From a virus, in IMG/VR virus record IMGVR_UViG_3300044535_000202, positions 1 to 35,815 of that record: 35,815 nucleotides of DNA. The stretch is one strand, 5' to 3'. Each line of letters starts with the position of its first letter. Within the stretch, counting starts at the first letter, position 1. The notes under the pieces were generated by a model, which saw only the letters and a list, made by a program, of their open reading frames with translations, was not told the origin of the DNA and made no database searches. The translations under genes and the position numbers were made by a program. Positions 5,547 through 28,818 of the stretch are shown here, piece after piece.

Positions 5547-5840
5547 ATGGCGGTAAAAAACTTAAACCCAGTTACAGGCATAATGGATTTTAAAACATTC
5601 TCAAAGAATCCTATTGTAGCTACATTATTTTTAGTACTTATAGCAATATCTTATTTATACATTGATGTTAAATCTACTTTTAAAGAACAAATAGTATCAC
5701 AGAATGCTAAAGTTATTAAATTAGAAGAAAAAGTTGATGTGATGCAAATACTTCTAAGGAGGACAGATTCTTCATTAGCTGCTGCCACAACTAAATTAAG
5801 TACATTGGAACAATTAGGTAAAATTCAAATGATTAAATAA
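5547..5840 (+). CDS. Membrane-anchored coiled-coil protein, inner-membrane spanin candidate
   Basis: 97 residues: a short N-terminal part, one membrane helix at about 22-39 (PIVATLFLVLIAISYLYI), then a coiled coil (KVIKLEEKVDVMQILLRR) to the end. This is i-spanin topology: cytoplasmic start, one span, periplasmic coiled coil. The next gene starts on its stop (TAATG) and encodes a lipoprotein, which is the usual i-/o-spanin arrangement. Assignment is by topology and position only. Confidence 0.55.
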   Translation: MAVKNLNPVTGIMDFKTFSKNPIVATLFLVLIAISYLYIDVKSTFKEQIVSQNAKVIKLEEKVDVMQILLRRTDSSLAAATTKLSTLEQLGKIQMIK

Positions 5841-10666: not shown

Positions 10667-11326
10667 ATGACTTGGCAAGACATTAACTTATTTAAATATC
10701 AAAGGCTTATACCCGTTCTTCAAGAAGGAGAAAACATAGACCAATACTCGAAGATAATTGGCATCCTTTATGATATGACAGATAACGAAGTTAATAGCTT
10801 GTCAATATCTCAATACTTAGATTTAAAAGCAAAGGTTAACTTACTTTTAAACACAGACATCAAAGGTCAACCTGTAAAATACATTAAGTTGAAAGGTAGA
10901 AGGTATAAGTGCATTTATGATATAAGGAACTTACCTGCTGCCAGATATATTGAAACAAAAGTATTCAGTGAGGACTTTATAGGAAATATTCATAAGGTAG
11001 CTGCATCAATGGTCATCCCTATGAAGAAAACTTTATTCGGTTGGAAGTTGGATAAGTACGATGCAAGTAAGCACGATGTGTACGCACAGGATATGTTGGA
11101 GGCAAGGTTCGTAGATGTGTATCAGAGTGCAGTTTTTTTTTTAAGTGTTTATCTGAATTGGATAAAAGTTTCGCAGGATTATATGATACAGGAGTTGAGC
11201 AAGACAGTAACCCATTCGGAAGCAGTAAAGGAGGTAGCAGATTTGTTGAAGTTTATGGATGGCATTATACCATATACGAAATTGCCAAGCTCAACAATCA
11301 AGAGGTTAACGAGGTCTGGGAGATGA
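10667..11326 (+). CDS. Tail assembly chaperone, unshifted product (G-like)
   Basis: 219 residues when read without a shift. Features include MTWQDINLFKYQRLIPVL, VKYIKLKGRRYKC, IYDIRNLPAARYIE, NIHKVAASMVIPM and YDASKHDVYAQDM. I associate this pattern with the tail-assembly protein that precedes the tape-measure gene in Bacteroidota siphophages. At 11133-11142 the reading frame runs through ten T. After it the zero frame stays open for another 60 codons (LNWIKVSQDYMIQEL, LLKFMDGIIPYTKLP), while the -1 frame also encodes a plausible domain. The pair therefore looks like lambda G and GT. Confidence 0.75.
   Translation: MTWQDINLFKYQRLIPVLQEGENIDQYSKIIGILYDMTDNEVNSLSISQYLDLKAKVNLLLNTDIKGQPVKYIKLKGRRYKCIYDIRNLPAARYIETKVFSEDFIGNIHKVAASMVIPMKKTLFGWKLDKYDASKHDVYAQDMLEARFVDVYQSAVFFLSVYLNWIKVSQDYMIQELSKTVTHSEAVKEVADLLKFMDGIIPYTKLPSSTIKRLTRSGR
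11134..11143 (+). other. Slippery site for -1 frameshift (T run)
   Basis: The run of ten T (11133-11142) is followed by A. In the zero frame it reads GTT TTT TTT TTA, giving the canonical heptamers T TTT TTT (11134-11140) and T TTT TTA (11137-11143). A -1 slip here joins the first 159 codons of the gene at 10667 to the frame ending at 11388, making a 240-residue fusion. Transcriptional slippage or a homopolymer sequencing error would give the same picture. I did not find a clear pseudoknot by eye. Confidence 0.6.
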
Positions 11327-11388
11327 AAACTTTAGAATATTTGAACACGATGGCATATATAAAAGCTTTGAGGGATTATCAGAAATGA
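11143..11388 (+). CDS. Tail assembly chaperone, -1 frame extension (T-like domain)
   Basis: 81 codons in the -1 frame after the T run, starting KCLSELDKSFAGLYDTG and ending FVEVYGWHYTIYEIAKL, NNQEVNEVWEMKTLEYL and NTMAYIKALRDYQK. The YGW...T...A...EV...LEYLN..AYIKA pattern is what I expect from the second tail-assembly chaperone domain. The next gene starts on its stop (ATGA at 11385-11388), which shows that ribosomes are expected to end here. A lone TTG start at 11158 is possible, but the fused product by frameshift fits better. About 180 bases (11143-11326) are open in both frames. Confidence 0.7.
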   Translation, partial: KCLSELDKSFAGLYDTGVEQDSNPFGSSKGGSRFVEVYGWHYTIYEIAKLNNQEVNEVWEMKTLEYLNTMAYIKALRDYQK

Positions 11389-11627
11389 GGTATTTAGACT
11401 TAGATGTACTTGTGCATAACGATTCAACTAAGTTAATGGACAGCTTGGATATGGACTTTGACTTAGAAACCTGTGATATTAAAACAATAAGGTTATATGA
11501 CATTAGTTTTATAATGCCATACGAGCAGAATGGAATAGACTATACACAGATATTTGTTAGTGGCAATTCTTTTATAAGTCCGTTAGATTATAACACATTT
11601 AAGAAGTTGGTTACGGTGTTTGGTTAA
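11385..11627 (+). CDS. Hypothetical 80-residue protein
   Basis: Starts in an ATGA overlap with the chaperone extension. It is acidic and hydrophobic in alternation (YLDLDVLVHNDSTKLMDSLD, FIMPYEQNGIDYTQIFVSG), suggesting a small beta-rich fold. No family recognised. It sits before a strong terminator and is the last gene of its transcription unit. Confidence 0.6.
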   Translation: MRYLDLDVLVHNDSTKLMDSLDMDFDLETCDIKTIRLYDISFIMPYEQNGIDYTQIFVSGNSFISPLDYNTFKKLVTVFG

Positions 11628-11647: not shown

Positions 11648-11676
11648 ACCCTATGCTTCGGTGTAGGGTTTTTTTT
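11648..11676 (+). terminator. Intrinsic terminator with C(UUCG)G tetraloop
   Basis: ACCCTATGC (11648-11656) pairs with GTGTAGGGT (11661-11669) as nine base pairs including two G-U, closed by the very stable TTCG loop. Eight T follow (11669-11676). It separates the chaperone unit from the next tail genes. Confidence 0.85.
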
Positions 11677-11700
11677 GTCAGTTATTTTAGCTTTAATCAC

Positions 11701-15595: not shown

Positions 15596-17248
15596 ATGGC
15601 AGAACAATTAAATTTAAGTATAAATGTAACCGGTAACGTAGAAGAATCTTTAGGTTCAATAAAGAAACAATTACGAGAAGCACAGAATGAAGTAACTGCT
15701 TTGTCCGATAAGTTTGGGGCTACATCTAAGGAAGCAGTAAACGCAGCAAAAAAAGCAGCAGACCTTAAAGACAGAATAGGAGATGCTAAAGCATTAACAG
15801 AAGCATTTAATCCAGACCAAAAATTTAGAGCATTAACACAATCACTTGCAGGTGTAGCAGGTGGATTTGCAGCAGTTCAAGGTGCTATTGGTTTATTTGG
15901 TGGAGAAAGCAAAGAGCTTGAAAAGCAATTACTAAAAGTTCAATCTGCAATGGCTTTATCAGAAGGTCTTGAACAAGTTGGTAATAGTATAGATAGTTTT
16001 AAACAATTAGGTACAGTAATTAAAACACAGGTAGTTACTGCTTTTAGTACTTTGCGTGGTGCTTTAATAGCAACAGGAATAGGTGCATTGGCAATCGGAA
16101 TAGCATTAATAGCAGCCAACTTTGATAAAGTAAAAAAGGCTGTACTGAATGCAGTACCCGGTCTTGAAACCTTTGCAAATTTTGTAGGTAAAATAATAAC
16201 TAAAGTAACTGACTTTGTAGGTATTACAAGTGTTCAAGATAGGGGATTCCAACAACTTATAAAAACTACAGAGAGAGCAAATGAAACTATAGACCAAAGG
16301 ATAAAACTACTTACTGCACAAGGTGGTAAAGAAAAAGAAATATATGAATTAAACAAACAAAGGAATGAGAATGAACTAAAGATATTAAGAGAAAAACTAA
16401 AGCTAACAGGGCAACTTTCTGAAGAAGAATCTAAAAGATTTAGAGAATTAAAGAATGAGAATGCAGTCTTGGATTTAGAAGAACAAGGAAGATTAACAAA
16501 ATTACAAGAAAAGCCTAATGTAGTTAAAGATATTGTTGAAAAGGAAACTAAAGTACAAAAAGATAATAGTGCAGAAGTTGCAAGAAATGTCGCAAAATTA
16601 CAAAAAGAAGCACAAGAAAATTCAGATAAAGCAGCTGCAAAAAAACAAAAAGATGATGATGAAGAAGTTGAAAGATTATTTCAACAAGAAGAAGATTTGC
16701 AACAAAAAAATATAAAAATATCTAATGAAAAAATATTATTAGATAAAAAAAATGCACAAGCAGCTGAAATAATTGCAAGAGAAAAGAAAGAGTCTGAAAC
16801 TATGTATGCAATGCAAACATTGGATATTATAGGTGGATTAGTAGACCAGAATAGTGTAGCAGGTAAAGCTATTTCAATAAGCCAAGCTATTATAAATACT
16901 TACTTGGGTGCATCAAAAGCAATAGCACAAGGTGGTGTGTTTGGTCCAATAGCAGCAGCAGCAACTATTGCAGCAGGATTAGTAAACGTACAAAAGATTA
17001 TTAGCACTAAAGTACCTTCTGCTAAAGGTCGTGGAACTGTTGGCGGTGGCGGAGGAGGTGGTTCAATATCGGCATCTTCTGCTGCACCAATTCAGCCTTT
17101 AGGGGAACAAGCACAGCTAACACAATTAAATCAAAGTAGCATTAATGCTATAGGCAATCAATCAATGAGAGCCTACGTAGTAGAAACAGATGTTACTTCT
17201 TCACAGCAGAGAATAGCAGCTATACAACAAAGAGCAAGGTTTAACTGA
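15596..17248 (+). CDS. Tape measure protein
   Basis: 550 residues with the usual three parts: an N-terminal helical region (ESLGSIKKQLREAQNEVTAL, AVNAAKKAADLKDRI), a hydrophobic segment near 155-175 (LIATGIGALAIGIALIAANF), and a long charged coiled coil from about 225 to 410 (KEKEIYELNKQRNENELKIL). A second hydrophobic patch (FGPIAAAATIAAGLVNV) and a Gly-rich linker (GGGGGGGS) are near the end. It sets tail length and occupies the tube lumen. At the usual 0.15 nm per residue the tail would be about 80 nm, an estimate only. Confidence 0.88.
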   Translation: MAEQLNLSINVTGNVEESLGSIKKQLREAQNEVTALSDKFGATSKEAVNAAKKAADLKDRIGDAKALTEAFNPDQKFRALTQSLAGVAGGFAAVQGAIGLFGGESKELEKQLLKVQSAMALSEGLEQVGNSIDSFKQLGTVIKTQVVTAFSTLRGALIATGIGALAIGIALIAANFDKVKKAVLNAVPGLETFANFVGKIITKVTDFVGITSVQDRGFQQLIKTTERANETIDQRIKLLTAQGGKEKEIYELNKQRNENELKILREKLKLTGQLSEEESKRFRELKNENAVLDLEEQGRLTKLQEKPNVVKDIVEKETKVQKDNSAEVARNVAKLQKEAQENSDKAAAKKQKDDDEEVERLFQQEEDLQQKNIKISNEKILLDKKNAQAAEIIAREKKESETMYAMQTLDIIGGLVDQNSVAGKAISISQAIINTYLGASKAIAQGGVFGPIAAAATIAAGLVNVQKIISTKVPSAKGRGTVGGGGGGGSISASSAAPIQPLGEQAQLTQLNQSSINAIGNQSMRAYVVETDVTSSQQRIAAIQQRARFN

Positions 17249-22985: not shown

Positions 22986-23307
22986 TAACGATATCATTTA
23001 TCCTGCTATGTTCTTTGATATGGGGGATGCTTCTATTAGTCAAAAGCAAATAAACTACACTTTCAACATTTATATATTAGACAGGCATCTCGTAGAAACA
23101 GATGCTTTAGAAGTTCTTTCAGATACTAACTTAATTGCACAAGATATTGTGGCGGAGTTTAGGAATCCTTCTACAGAATGGGTTACAGGTGATACAATTA
23201 CTTTAACTTATTTTAGAGAAGATTCCCCAGACTACCTTGCAGGAGTTAGTATAAACTTAAACATTACGCTTCCTTCATTAAATAACAGATGTCAAATCCC
23301 AACCTAA
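22885..23307 (+). CDS. Neck/tail-completion-like protein
   Basis: 140 residues: MTLNQIITQIKNYGETHPQI, KTVYFGEFSDKLDDNDIIYP, INYTFNIYILDRHLVETDAL, LTYFREDSPDYLAGVSINLN. Layout and size fit the small strand-helix proteins that finish the neck or tail end, and the place after the connector supports it. Exact family not certain. Confidence 0.58.
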   Translation: MTLNQIITQIKNYGETHPQIKTVYFGEFSDKLDDNDIIYPAMFFDMGDASISQKQINYTFNIYILDRHLVETDALEVLSDTNLIAQDIVAEFRNPSTEWVTGDTITLTYFREDSPDYLAGVSINLNITLPSLNNRCQIPT

Positions 23308-23308
23308 T

Positions 23309-23662
23309 ATGAATTCAGATTTTAAACCTGCAAGTTTTAACATAGATATTGTTAAAGGTAATACTTGGCAAGAAGTTTTTGCATTTACTTTAAATGATGT
23401 AGCAATTAACTTATCTACTGCAACTGTTTTAGTATCGGTATATAAAGGATGCAGTACGTCTGCTGCTTTGTTTACTGCAACGAATGGTAATGGCATAACT
23501 ATTCTTGGAGTAGGTAACAATAATGTAAGCATCAGTAAAATAGTACCTTTAGACAAAGGCAATTATATATGGGATTTAAAAATTACTTATGCTGATGGAA
23601 CGATAAAGACTTACTTATGGGGAGATTTTATCGTTTATGAAAACATCAATCAAGCACAATGA
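23309..23662 (+). CDS. Small Ig-like/BppU-N-like virion protein
   Basis: 117 residues: FNIDIVKGNTWQEVFAFTLN, VAINLSTATVLVSVYKG, DKGNYIWDLKITYADGTIKT and LWGDFIVYENINQ. The D-I-x-K-G-x-T opening and the Y-x-W/Y-D-L...DG...T...G-x-F-x-V ending are those of the N-terminal domain of baseplate upper proteins and related adsorption-apparatus modules. It overlaps the giant fibre gene by four bases, so it probably attaches or adapts the fibre. Confidence 0.6.
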   Translation: MNSDFKPASFNIDIVKGNTWQEVFAFTLNDVAINLSTATVLVSVYKGCSTSAALFTATNGNGITILGVGNNNVSISKIVPLDKGNYIWDLKITYADGTIKTYLWGDFIVYENINQAQ

Positions 23663-26600
23663 GTATAGAAATAAACATTACAGATAATATAGTTGAGGTA
23701 ACACCTACAGAACAGCAGGTTGACATTAATATTACTGAAAACCCTATTGAGGTAAATGTTACCGATGCTATTATAGTAGTAGCACAAACAGGCCTACCCG
23801 GTCCACAAGGTCCTGCCGGTCCTGGAATTGCGGTAGGTGGAACAGCAGGTCAGATACTTGCCAAAAATTCTTCTACCAATTACGATACTCTTTGGATTAA
23901 CGCAGGGGTGGGAACAGTTACAAGTATTAATGCTTCTGGTGTTAGTGGAATAAGTGTAAGCGGTGGACCAATTACTTCATCTGGAACTTTATTAATTACT
24001 AATACTGCACCGGACCAAGTTGTTTCTTTAACGGGTACGGGTACTACGAGCATATCGGGAACTTACCCTAACTTTACTATTAACAGCGAAGACCAATTCG
24101 ATGGAACGGTTACTTCAGTAGGTTTAATTTCTGGTACAGGTATTGCAGTAAGTGGAGGTCCGGTTACATCAAGCGGAAATATAACGGTTACAAATACTGC
24201 CCCAGACCAAATAGTTAGCTTAACGGGTACAGGCACAACATCAATAAGTGGCACTTATCCTTCATTCACAATTAATAGTGTTGATTCAAATGTAGGAACA
24301 GTTACAAGTATTGCAACATCAGCACCAATTACAGGTGGCACAATAACTGCATCTGGTACTATTGGCATAACGCAATCAAGTGCAAGTGGAGATGGTTATT
24401 TGAGTTCTACAGATTGGACTACTTTTAATGGTAAGCAAGGTGCTTTAACGCTAACTACAACAGGAACAAGTGGTGCTGCAACCTTAATAGGTAACACATT
24501 AAATGTTCCTCAATATGAAGCAGAAGGTAATTATGTTACAACGGCAACTACATTAACCATCAATGGAACTACTTATGATTTAAGTGCAAATAGAAGTTGG
24601 TCTGTAGGAACAGTTACTTCTGTAGGTCTTTCAATGCCTGTAGCTTTTTCTGTTTCCAATACACCAATTACATCAAGCGGTACTTTAGCGGTAACAGCAG
24701 TCGGTACTTCTTCTCAATATATTCGTGGAGATGGTCAATTAGCAACCTTACCAAGTGGTTCAAGTGGTGGTTCTTCTGTTAATTATTATTTAAATGGTAG
24801 TGTTGCAGCAAGTGTTGCAGGATATCAGCAGATGTCAAATAGTGCTGTCATTGGTGCAGGAACAGATTTTGCTTTAGTTGGAAATGGATTGATTGCACAG
24901 TTCTTAACTGATGTAGCTAATCCAAATAGGTTATTGATTCCGGGCGGTGCGTGGAACTTTGAGATGTATTTTAATATGAGTTCGAGTGGTGGCAATGCTA
25001 AATTTTATGTTGAACTATTAAAATATGATGGTACAACTTTCACAAGCATTGCAAGTTCATCTGCTGTAGCTGAAGAAATTACAGGAGGCACTACAATAGA
25101 TTTATACCTCACTTCTTTAGCAGTGCCGGAAACAGTGTTATTAACTTCTGACAGGTTAGCTATTAGGGTTTATATAGTAGATAATAGCGGCGGCAGAACA
25201 GCAAGATTACATACAGAGAATAGTCATCTCTGCGAGATAATCACAACCTTTGCAGGTGGTATTGCAGCACTAAACGGACTCACTGCTAACACCCAATATC
25301 TTGCTGTAGGAACAGCAGGAACTGATTTTGCAATTAGTTCTTTAACAGATATACATACATTTAACCTACCTACTGCATCAGCTACAAATCGTGGTGCATT
25401 AAGTAGTGCAGATTGGAGTACGTTTAACAGCAAAGAGGGTGCAATTACGGCAGGTACAACATTACAATATTTTAGGGGCGATAAGACCTTTCAAACATTA
25501 GATACATTAGCAGTACCGGAAAATACTAATCTTTACTTTACAGGCGATAGGGTTAGGACTACTTTGTTAACAGGATTAAACCTTGCATCTGGTGGCACAA
25601 TAGCTGCAACGGATGATGTCTTGGTTGCTTTCGGCAAGGTACAGAATCAAATATCTGCATTAGTAGGTGGTGTAAATTATGATGGCACTTGGAACGCATC
25701 AACGAACAGTCCTACGATTGTTAGCGGAACAGGCAACAAGGGTGATTATTATGTTGTGAGTACGGCAGGTTCTACCAATATAGATGGTATTACTGATTGG
25801 AAGATTGGCGATTGGATTATATTTAACGGCACGGTATGGGATAAGGTAGATAATACAGATGCAGTAAGTTCTGTTAATGGTTACACGGGTGCAGTTTCTT
25901 TGGTTACGGGAGATGTTTTAGAGGGAACGGGTTCGCTACCGAGCAGACCTTCTCAATTATATTTTACAGATGCAAGGGCAAGGTCGGCATTAAGTGCAGG
26001 AACGGGCATAAGTTACAATAGCACAACGGGTGTAATAACCAACTCATCCCCAGACCAAACTGTAAGCATAACAGCAGGTAGTGGAATAAGTGTATCGGGT
26101 ACATACCCATCCTTTACGGTTGCATCAACTATTACTCAGTACACAGATGCTCTTGCAAGGGCAGCGGTTAGTTTAACAGTATCGGGGGCAAGTGGTGCAT
26201 CTACTTACAATAGCACTACAGGTGTTTTGAACGTACCTACATACACACTAAGCGGATTGGGTGGTGTGCCTACAACAAGGTCAATAACTATTAATGGTAC
26301 TGCCCAAGATTTAAGTGCAGACAGAACATTTAGCGTAGGTACAGTTACAAGTGTAGGATTATCAAGTGTAACAAGTGGGGTAACGATTGGTTCAACTCCT
26401 GTAACAACAAGTGGCACGATAACATTAGCTATTGCAACTGCAAGTGGCTCACAGAACGGATTGCTTAGTAGCACAGATTGGACTACGTTTAATGGCAAAC
26501 AGAACGCATTAACTAACCCTGTTACAGGCACAGGCACTACAAACTACCTACCTAAGTTTACAGGTGCAAGTGCGATAGGGGATAGTATTATTAGCGAAAG

Positions 26601-28818
26601 TGGTACTATAATAACTGTTGCAGGAAATATAAATGTTGGTTCATTAGGAAATTTAGCTATTAACGCAGGAAGTTCTGCTACTCCATTATTAACTCAATCA
26701 ACAAATTATACTGAATTATATAGAAGAAGCGGAGGCGTTGGAATTTATTTAGGAGGTACAGGAGACCCTGCTAACTATTACGATAATACTAGTCATTTCT
26801 TTAGAAGTTCAGCAGGTGGCTCTACTTATCTAACTATCAATTCCTCAGGTAACCTCAGCTTAGGAGTTACACCGAGTGCGTGGAGTTTAGGTAAAGCTAT
26901 TGAAATTGGAAACATAGGTAATTCAGTTTGGGGTGTAAACGCAACTCAATTTAATGTATTGCAGAATGTTTATTACGATGGCGGTGGGTTCAAGTACGCA
27001 TCAACTAATGCTGCAAGTTACTATCAACAAATTAGTGGTGCTCACGCTTGGTATACCGCCCCATCAGGAACGGCAGGTAACGCTATAACCTTTACCACAG
27101 CAATGATTTTGGATGCAAGTGGCTCATTACTTATTGGAGCAAGTGGAACTGTTGGTGTAAAATATATTTCTATCACACCGTCATCAACAACAACTCCAAC
27201 TGTTATTCAAGGGGCTCACGCAGGAGTAGGTGCGTATGCGATTGCAATGCAGTCAGGTGGTGGAAATTTATTAGTCGGCACAACAACAGATGCAGGATAT
27301 AAACTTGATGTTAATGGTACAGGAAGGTTTAGTGGGGCATTGACAGGAACAAGTGCCACATTTAGTGGGAGAATTGGAACATCTTTAAGTAGCTCAGGTA
27401 TAAATTTTAATAATTCATCTTTCTATGTAAACAATACGGCAAATACAAAAGGCGCAATATTTGGATATAACGATACTAATGATAATTTTTATTTTACTGC
27501 TCTTGAATATGGTGTTGCATATAAACCTATATTATTTAACACAAGTGCAGCCACATTCTCAAGTAGTGTAACAACGGGTGGATTTGTATATGCTAATGGT
27601 AATTTAGCTACGGCTAATGGGAATCAAAGTGCAAATTCTACATCTGCTACTTTATTTCTTGGTAACAGAGGTTACTTTACAAGTCCTGATGTTGGTGCTG
27701 CAACTATTAGAGCAATATCTACAGGGTCATTTTGGTATAGTAGAACAGATTTGTCATTTTCAACAAACCCCGGCCCTGACGTTACATCTACATCTGCTGT
27801 TGAACGTATGCGTATAACAGGTGATGGTAACGTAGGTATAGGTACTGCAAGTCCAAACATAGGTTCAGTTACAGGAACTGTTTTAACAATCAATGGAAGT
27901 GTTCAGTCTAACTTAGAGATGGCATCGGCAGGTGTTAGTCGTGCAAGGATTGCTTCATCTTCTTCAGATACTACGATTGAAACTCGTACTGCATTACCTC
28001 TTGTATTTGGTACAAATTCTACCGAAAAGATGCGTATCACAAGCGGCGGTAACGTACTCATCGGCACAACAACAGACAACGGAACAGATAGGTTGCAGGT
28101 TAGTGGAAATGGATACGTTAGCGGTAGTTTAGGAGTTGGCATAACACCTTCTTATCCGCTTCATATACGACTTAACACCAACTCTACAACAAAATCAACA
28201 CTACTTTCTCAAGAAGTATATAGTAGTGCAAGTGGTTATACTGATTATTTTAGGTTTGAAGTAGGTGCTAATAGTAGCAGAGGAGGAAGGATTATATTTG
28301 GCGAAACAGGTGGAGGATTTTCTGACTCGTATATAGAGTTCGCACTAAATGCTACAAATATTTACCAAAGCGGTAACAACCCAATAACCTTTACAACTAA
28401 TAACATTGAAAGGCTTCGTGTTACAGGAGGTGGTGAAATACTTGTAGGCAACACAGACAATGGAGCATATAATCTACAATGTAACGGAACAGGAGTATGG
28501 GGTGCGGGTGCTTATGTTAATGGTTCTGATATTAACTTAAAAGATAACATTACAGATATAAACAACGCCCTTGATTTAGTGTTAAAGATTCAGCCTAAGA
28601 CATTTACTTATAAGCCTGACTACAGCAAAGACCAATCAATACAGACAGGATTCATAGCACAGCAACTTATTAATGTACTTAAAGATGAAGTTTATCTTGA
28701 TGGTATTGTAAAGATGGGCAACGAGCATTATAATGTAGCTTATCAAAACTTGATACCACTATTGGTTAAAGCAATACAAGAGCAACAGATACAAATAGAG
28801 CAACTTAAAAACAGATAA
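23659..28818 (+). CDS. Giant tail fibre with S74 intramolecular chaperone
   Basis: 1719 residues. The N-terminus is an anchor rich in Ile/Asn/Val followed by a collagen-like stretch GLPGPQGPAGPG. Then come many repeats of the kinds GTVTSVGL, SGGPVTSSGNI, SLTGTGTTSISGTYPSFTI and SSTDWTTFNGKQ, interrupted by a beta-sandwich-like domain (about 375-520). The C-terminus is a peptidase S74 chaperone: SDINLKDNI with Ser1623 and Lys1628, FTYKPDYSKDQSIQTGFIAQ and a final coiled coil IQEQQIQIEQLKNR. Known S74 proteins trimerise and cut themselves before the Ser, so about 97 residues would be released. It is the best candidate receptor-binding protein and takes 14% of the genome. Confidence 0.88.
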   Translation: MSIEINITDNIVEVTPTEQQVDINITENPIEVNVTDAIIVVAQTGLPGPQGPAGPGIAVGGTAGQILAKNSSTNYDTLWINAGVGTVTSINASGVSGISVSGGPITSSGTLLITNTAPDQVVSLTGTGTTSISGTYPNFTINSEDQFDGTVTSVGLISGTGIAVSGGPVTSSGNITVTNTAPDQIVSLTGTGTTSISGTYPSFTINSVDSNVGTVTSIATSAPITGGTITASGTIGITQSSASGDGYLSSTDWTTFNGKQGALTLTTTGTSGAATLIGNTLNVPQYEAEGNYVTTATTLTINGTTYDLSANRSWSVGTVTSVGLSMPVAFSVSNTPITSSGTLAVTAVGTSSQYIRGDGQLATLPSGSSGGSSVNYYLNGSVAASVAGYQQMSNSAVIGAGTDFALVGNGLIAQFLTDVANPNRLLIPGGAWNFEMYFNMSSSGGNAKFYVELLKYDGTTFTSIASSSAVAEEITGGTTIDLYLTSLAVPETVLLTSDRLAIRVYIVDNSGGRTARLHTENSHLCEIITTFAGGIAALNGLTANTQYLAVGTAGTDFAISSLTDIHTFNLPTASATNRGALSSADWSTFNSKEGAITAGTTLQYFRGDKTFQTLDTLAVPENTNLYFTGDRVRTTLLTGLNLASGGTIAATDDVLVAFGKVQNQISALVGGVNYDGTWNASTNSPTIVSGTGNKGDYYVVSTAGSTNIDGITDWKIGDWIIFNGTVWDKVDNTDAVSSVNGYTGAVSLVTGDVLEGTGSLPSRPSQLYFTDARARSALSAGTGISYNSTTGVITNSSPDQTVSITAGSGISVSGTYPSFTVASTITQYTDALARAAVSLTVSGASGASTYNSTTGVLNVPTYTLSGLGGVPTTRSITINGTAQDLSADRTFSVGTVTSVGLSSVTSGVTIGSTPVTTSGTITLAIATASGSQNGLLSSTDWTTFNGKQNALTNPVTGTGTTNYLPKFTGASAIGDSIISESGTIITVAGNINVGSLGNLAINAGSSATPLLTQSTNYTELYRRSGGVGIYLGGTGDPANYYDNTSHFFRSSAGGSTYLTINSSGNLSLGVTPSAWSLGKAIEIGNIGNSVWGVNATQFNVLQNVYYDGGGFKYASTNAASYYQQISGAHAWYTAPSGTAGNAITFTTAMILDASGSLLIGASGTVGVKYISITPSSTTTPTVIQGAHAGVGAYAIAMQSGGGNLLVGTTTDAGYKLDVNGTGRFSGALTGTSATFSGRIGTSLSSSGINFNNSSFYVNNTANTKGAIFGYNDTNDNFYFTALEYGVAYKPILFNTSAATFSSSVTTGGFVYANGNLATANGNQSANSTSATLFLGNRGYFTSPDVGAATIRAISTGSFWYSRTDLSFSTNPGPDVTSTSAVERMRITGDGNVGIGTASPNIGSVTGTVLTINGSVQSNLEMASAGVSRARIASSSSDTTIETRTALPLVFGTNSTEKMRITSGGNVLIGTTTDNGTDRLQVSGNGYVSGSLGVGITPSYPLHIRLNTNSTTKSTLLSQEVYSSASGYTDYFRFEVGANSSRGGRIIFGETGGGFSDSYIEFALNATNIYQSGNNPITFTTNNIERLRVTGGGEILVGNTDNGAYNLQCNGTGVWGAGAYVNGSDINLKDNITDINNALDLVLKIQPKTFTYKPDYSKDQSIQTGFIAQQLINVLKDEVYLDGIVKMGNEHYNVAYQNLIPLLVKAIQEQQIQIEQLKNR
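24001..26124 (+). repeat. Internal repeats of the tail fibre gene
   Basis: A unit of about 85 bases encoding APDQxVSLTGTGTTSISGTY and PSFTINS occurs at 24001-24087, 24193-24279 and, more diverged, 26041-26124. Another unit of about 40 bases encoding LSSTDWTTFNGKQ is at 24401-24438, 25396-25437 and 26461-26502. Wording differs at synonymous positions, so the repeats are old or kept under selection against recombination. They are normal for fibre shafts. Confidence 0.75.

Follow-up and report, generated by a model that had tools for sequence, protein, structure and literature searches.

A probable tail assembly chaperone gene with a conserved T run and dual-coded C-terminal segments in a clade of phages

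The gene at positions 10667-11388 of the IMG/VR virus record IMGVR_UViG_3300044535_000202 (35,815 bases, the whole of which was analysed and is called the window here) is probably a two-product tail-assembly chaperone gene with dual-coded C-termini, an explanation to which we assign a probability of about 0.78. We propose that its main product is the 219-aa zero-frame protein, consisting of a shared 158-aa N-terminal domain and a helical C-terminal segment that derives from the overlap, and that a -1 shift on a run of T would yield a minority product of ~240 aa, in which a flexible linker and a three-helix domain take the place of this segment. On the model of lambda G/GT, the tape measure would be coated by the shared domain, and tail-tube subunits would be recruited by the alternative one. 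We infer the existence of the two products, which of them is the minority one, the chaperone role and the ratio. The dual coding itself is supported by the substitutions among relatives.

Reading frames, gene context and predicted folds

The unshifted, G-like protein is encoded by a zero-frame ORF on the plus strand (10667-11326, 219 aa) that contains ten T at 11133-11142, within the zero-frame codons GTT TTT TTT TTA; this putative slip site holds two in-phase heptamers, T_TTT_TTT (11134-11140) and T_TTT_TTA (11137-11143). After the run the zero frame continues for 60 codons to a TGA at 11324-11326. The -1 frame, delimited by sequence, alignments and AlphaFold2, is open at 11143-11385 (81 codons) and closes with a TGA at 11386-11388, which overlaps the ATG at 11385 of the next ORF (ATGA); the extension as a whole thus occupies 11143-11388 on the plus strand. 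Residues 1-158 of the zero-frame protein would be common to the fusion, with a predicted length of ~240 aa, and residues 159-219 are overlap-encoded. An earlier note on this DNA had given the same coordinates and counts (ten T, 60 and 81 codons, the ATGA and the fusion length), and all of them proved correct.

The next ORF (11385-11627, plus strand, 80 aa, from the ORF list) had no match in family searches. A terminator-like hairpin with a T run lies at 11648-11677 on the plus strand, after the two-product gene and this ORF; one such element was found where 0.9 are expected by chance. A hairpin of the same kind, again with a T run, occupies the equivalent place in a relative (L097, about 5778-5811), and most of the T9 runs elsewhere in the relatives' loci also lie just after the two-product gene. 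A tape-measure-like protein is encoded downstream in the same gene block (15596-17248, plus strand; phrog_3336, tail length tape measure protein, E 7.7e-6). Elsewhere in the window, positions 23659-28818 hold a tail-fibre-like ORF of 1,719 aa, which has many near-repeats and includes a collagen-like segment, GPQGPAGP.

The gene is best interpreted, from its position and architecture and by analogy, as a tail assembly chaperone of the lambda G/GT type; that it belongs to this class is likely but not proven. Two features of the G/GT plan are present: an upstream ORF is overlapped, at the sequence level, by a -1 frame at a conserved slip site, and the gene stands in a tail gene block upstream of, and on the same strand as, the tape measure gene, though with four ORFs between them. 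PHROGs, Pfam, NCBIfam and PDB sequences gave no match to a known chaperone (HK97 gp13, lambda gpG), a PDB fold search gave no useful match (Z at most 4.1), and the sole chaperone-named fold match, to the viral protein A0A8S5L849, was short and weak (53 columns, E 1.7). The name tail chaperone, as used in the earlier note, is consequently backed by position and architecture and not by a sequence or fold match to a known chaperone.

The AlphaFold2 model of the 219-aa protein, built with 55 sequences, has a mean pLDDT of 86.9 and a pTM of 0.80. In the overlap-encoded part, residues 159-200 are predicted as helices (block means of pLDDT 86-94), and the last 19 residues (201-219; pLDDT about 50) are not confidently helical. 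The -1 extension modelled alone gave a partly confident model (pLDDT 68), with values mostly below 50 up to residue 30 and about 85 from residue 41 onwards; in this model residues 1-32 form a mostly disordered linker and residues 33-80 a helical, T-like domain with helices at 33-51, 55-59 and 63-80. Folding is thus predicted to be staggered, the folded part of one frame lying mostly opposite the loose part of the other.

Conservation of the T run and selection on both frames

Viral contigs were searched by protein and by profiles, each scan giving the best 80 of up to several hundred relatives. Among the matches listed, the first subfamily has 146 distinct members, with T9 in 130 and T10 in 16 at the same codon position. 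A second subfamily, which includes the cultured Nonlabens phages P12024S and P12024L, was reached through the predicted fold, a direct protein search with three family members having found no isolate match; the two subfamilies are joined by profile comparison (probability 97.8 for the N-terminal domain and 95.2 for the -1 domain). The pooled set comprises at least 249 distinct sequences, which fall into 79 clusters at 80% DNA identity, the latter being the fairer number since the relatives share ancestry. The T run is present in 249 of 249 (9 T in 214, 10 in 34 and 12 in 1), followed by at least 50 zero-frame codons in 235, by the contig end in 8 and by 6-24 codons in 6; the distance from the slip to the zero-frame stop is about 180 nt in the window and 159-255 nt in most relatives. 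Loci found through the -1 domain alone, which are unselected for the run, obey the same rule in 78 of the 78 not cut by a contig end, some of them being the same contigs as in the pooled set; in one locus (L314) the contig end cuts the T run itself. One bacterial genome contig, a Chitinophagaceae MAG, carries the gene, and together with the Nonlabens hosts this suggests that the phages probably infect Bacteroidota.

A few loci depart from the common arrangement. In L259/L347 (IMGVR_UViG_3300010368_001685) the zero-frame stop lies 6 codons after a T10 and the -1 domain is intact, which is either an error or a naturally lambda-like member of the family. Around 3480-3600 of L130 the T run is kept and the next stretch is deleted, both frames closing soon after this internal deletion. 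Two copies of the gene (L117 and L154) lie about 31 kb apart on one contig of 63,203 bases (IMGVR_UViG_3300043436_001856), which suggests two joined phage genomes or a tandem provirus. The gene AGN89393 of Flavobacterium phage 6H matched weakly by fold and was excluded as it has neither T9 nor a clear -1 domain. In the same phage (KC959568, minus strand; L179, 10352-10927) the weak fold relative ends just after T_TTT_TTC, with a continuation like the post-slip helices in another frame; a different recoding or a sequence error is possible.

Selection was assessed on a tree of 86 ungapped sequences, a group defined by overlap length from which one of 87 sequences of the same N-terminal length was left out. 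Substitutions were counted by parsimony and not by a full overlapping-codon model; the few stop-creating changes that parsimony inferred stem from sites being reconstructed independently. Changes per site at zero-frame positions 1, 2 and 3 were 2.04, 0.95 and 8.56 before the run, 2.31, 3.68 and 3.39 in the overlap, and 0.89, 9.00 and 3.00 after the zero-frame stop. The third positions of both frames are therefore constrained inside the overlap, and at the zero-frame stop the rate at -1 third positions climbs to 9 changes per site, from about 3.7 before it. When the changes in the overlap of the same tree are classed by their effect, the rate per opportunity is 4.90 (interval 3.28-7.27) for those silent in both frames, 1.46 (0.97-1.95) for those silent in the zero frame only, 1.66 (1.22-2.24) for those silent in the -1 frame only, and lowest, 0.67 (0.47-0.90), for those altering both. 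For comparison, the neutral rate is 4.88 upstream (zero-silent changes) and 5.27 beyond the zero-frame stop (-1-silent changes), so that changes silent in a single frame run about threefold below neutral in the overlap. Since changes silent in both frames are not slowed, selection acts on two proteins and not on the DNA or RNA as such. Relative to the neutral rate, either frame of the overlap tolerates about one third of amino-acid changes, versus about one tenth in single-frame sequence.

The two frames share the constraint unevenly: it falls more heavily on the zero frame in the first half of the overlap (1.39 vs 2.32 for the -1 frame) and on the -1 frame in the second half (0.82 vs 1.89 for the zero frame), which, independently of the models, agrees with the staggered folding predicted above. 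The same substitution pattern was found in the window's own small group and in two other groups. In the second subfamily, with an overlap of 83 codons, third positions show 1.55 changes per site in the N-terminal part, and 0.29 and 0.23 in the overlap. Judged from the substitution classes and their replication in the second subfamily, the stretch at 11143-11326 on the plus strand (60 zero-frame codons and their stop) is real dual coding, with two C-termini under selection at the amino-acid level. The claim of the earlier note that some 180 shared bases encode two C-terminal ends is in this way supported by synonymous and non-synonymous change per frame. Neither of the two refuting conditions of that note holds: both downstream frames are conserved, and the 9, 10 or 12 T of the relatives do not join the frames.

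Two accounts would make one of the frames spurious. That the zero frame beyond the run is open through chance or drift, the -1 domain alone being functional, could be argued from the Nonlabens group with just 15-24 zero-frame codons, from the lineage with 6, and from conserved zero-frame residues, e.g. DG, that mirror the -1 motif YGW. Yet changes that are silent in the -1 frame and alter the zero frame run at 1.66, against a neutral 4.9-5.3; the segment is predicted to be folded (pLDDT 86-94); and when the -1 protein was held fixed and its codons redrawn from phage usage, the zero frame stayed open over the observed length in 0.7% of draws for the window and in 0.03-4.6% for eight other lineages, so that openness is improbable in each of the nine. 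Chance openness, already disfavoured by the substitution data, is accordingly very improbable. Homopolymers are generally error-prone, and a miscounted T, from sequencing or assembly, might have split one continuous gene. The rule of T9, T10 or T12 holds, however, in 249 distinct sequences from many samples and in two cultured phages; sixteen distinct sequences have T10 in an identical context, T9 lineages arrive at the same two frames via different flanking codons, and a frame created by an artefact would not be constrained, yet both are. We regard an error as already refuted by the sequences of the relatives and leave it a negligible probability.

RNA polymerase or ribosome as the candidate slipping agent

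There are two candidates for the agent that would slip. RNA polymerase may slip on nine or more T and add one U, in which case some mRNAs would carry the -1 frame and the ribosome would read normally; alternatively, the ribosome may undergo ordinary -1 programmed frameshifting on the in-phase T_TTT_TTT or T_TTT_TTA. Polymerase slippage is slightly ahead, at roughly even odds, and ribosomal frameshifting is a serious contender that falls somewhat short of that. The main argument for the polymerase is length: the run is never shorter than nine T in 249 distinct sequences, an in-phase heptamer needing seven, and about nine or more A/T, the length at which transcriptional slippage is expected, is attained in 249 of 249 (9, 10 or 12 T). 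In the genes of many bacterial genomes, selection against A/T runs sets in at a length of nine, an effect attributed to transcriptional slippage (Baranov et al. 2005, PMC1088944). The flanks vary (GTT/CTT/ATT TTT TTT TAT, CTT TTT TTT TTC, TTT TTT TTT CTG, AGT TTT TTT TTT CGT and ACT TTT TTT TTG) and look, as sequences, like different ways to arrive at nine T. Elsewhere in the loci T9 or T10 is rare, 11 being seen vs about 65 expected under a Markov model. The Phe codons inside the run are never TTC; on the 86-sequence tree the run's two Phe codons never changed their third base, and invariant Phe codons elsewhere did so 6-7 times.

Part of this can be accounted for otherwise. A hydrophobic first codon (T in second position) and a Tyr, Cys or Leu after the run partly explain nine T, U_UUU_UUU should out-slip U_UUU_UUC on the ribosome as well, and the sequences are not independent. 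The precedent among tail chaperones is ribosomal: to our knowledge, all those tested so far use ribosomal frameshifting, and the frameshift site of phage P2 is T_TTT_TTG. Every context found has a canonical heptamer in phase, and frameshifting of this type is conserved widely among tail chaperones (reviewed in PMC5009743). Against this, any run of nine T holds an in-phase heptamer, which makes the phase uninformative; ribosomal frameshifting does not predict a minimum of nine; and in E. coli U_UUU_UUU promotes shifting weakly relative to A_AAA_AAG (PMC5009743). A shared downstream stimulator was not found either: just 3' of the run there is no consensus RNA structure across the groups, a point in favour of the polymerase, although some single groups fold better than shuffles. 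A strong RNA-structure signal occurs 120 nt downstream of the run in the largest group, inside the dual-coded region, where it may reflect coding constraint. The in-phase canonical heptamers reported in the earlier note are thus present, but the ribosome was there assumed as the agent, and the run lengths fit transcriptional slippage at least as well. Our literature search found no case of transcriptional slippage in a tail chaperone, the few papers with both terms being reviews or tool papers. We tentatively propose, at a shade under even odds, that a large clade of phages, probably of Bacteroidota, would set its chaperone ratio via polymerase slippage on at least nine T, not via the ribosome, and would derive two chaperones with distinct selected C-terminal segments from a single dual-coded region.

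Significance and comparison with known systems

In the usual view, a tail chaperone frameshift adds a domain close to the end of the first protein; in this family the shift would exchange the C-termini. For dsDNA phages, dual coding with both C-termini selected over about 60 codons is unusually long and clean, hundreds of natural variants are available for studying it, and the nine-T minimum makes possible a direct test of RNA polymerase vs ribosome as the slipping machine. The family also provides a recognition rule, T9 or longer followed by a -1 helical domain with a YGW or WGWY motif, applicable to gene products now deposited as separate hypothetical proteins.

Genes known for transcriptional slippage include Thermus dnaX, Shigella mxiE and spa13, and IS elements; in spa13 slippage yields a C-terminal extension in a secretion machine (PMC5009743, PMC1088944). 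As in these, a homopolymer of about nine or more A/T would determine the two products of the gene described here; it differs in being a phage tail gene whose dual-coded overlap is long, and for it slippage is a candidate mechanism.

The resemblance to lambda gpG/gpGT lies in an N-terminal domain common to two products, a -1 shift that leads to a second domain, and a place upstream of the tape measure; homology between lambda gpG/gpGT and this gene was not detectable. The lambda shift takes place close to the 3' terminus of gene G, and little of gpG follows it (PMC5009743), whereas here about 60 dual-coded codons follow the slip, and the fusion, which lacks the overlap-encoded helices of the unshifted protein, would have its C-terminus replaced and not extended. 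The contrast drawn in the earlier note, that both frames continue past the slip here and gpG ends soon, is borne out. Published slips lie on average 26 nt (SEA-PHAGES training set) and 36 nt (Xu phages) before the zero-frame stop (PMC10885494), as against about 180 nt in the window.

Cultured counterparts are ORFs 38-39 of the Nonlabens (Persicivirga) phages P12024S and P12024L (phrog_32199, phrog_38404), in which a T9 occupies the equivalent place and frame, and the N-terminal and -1 domains match the window's family by profile. In P12024S (JQ823122, L178) the pair spans 23136-23830 with the T9 at 23578-23586, and P12024L matches it at 99% in both ORFs. These phages differ in having 24 zero-frame codons after the run, and their frames were deposited, without mention of recoding, as two hypothetical proteins; to judge from their sequence, P12024S_38 and P12024S_39 look like two frames of one recoded gene.
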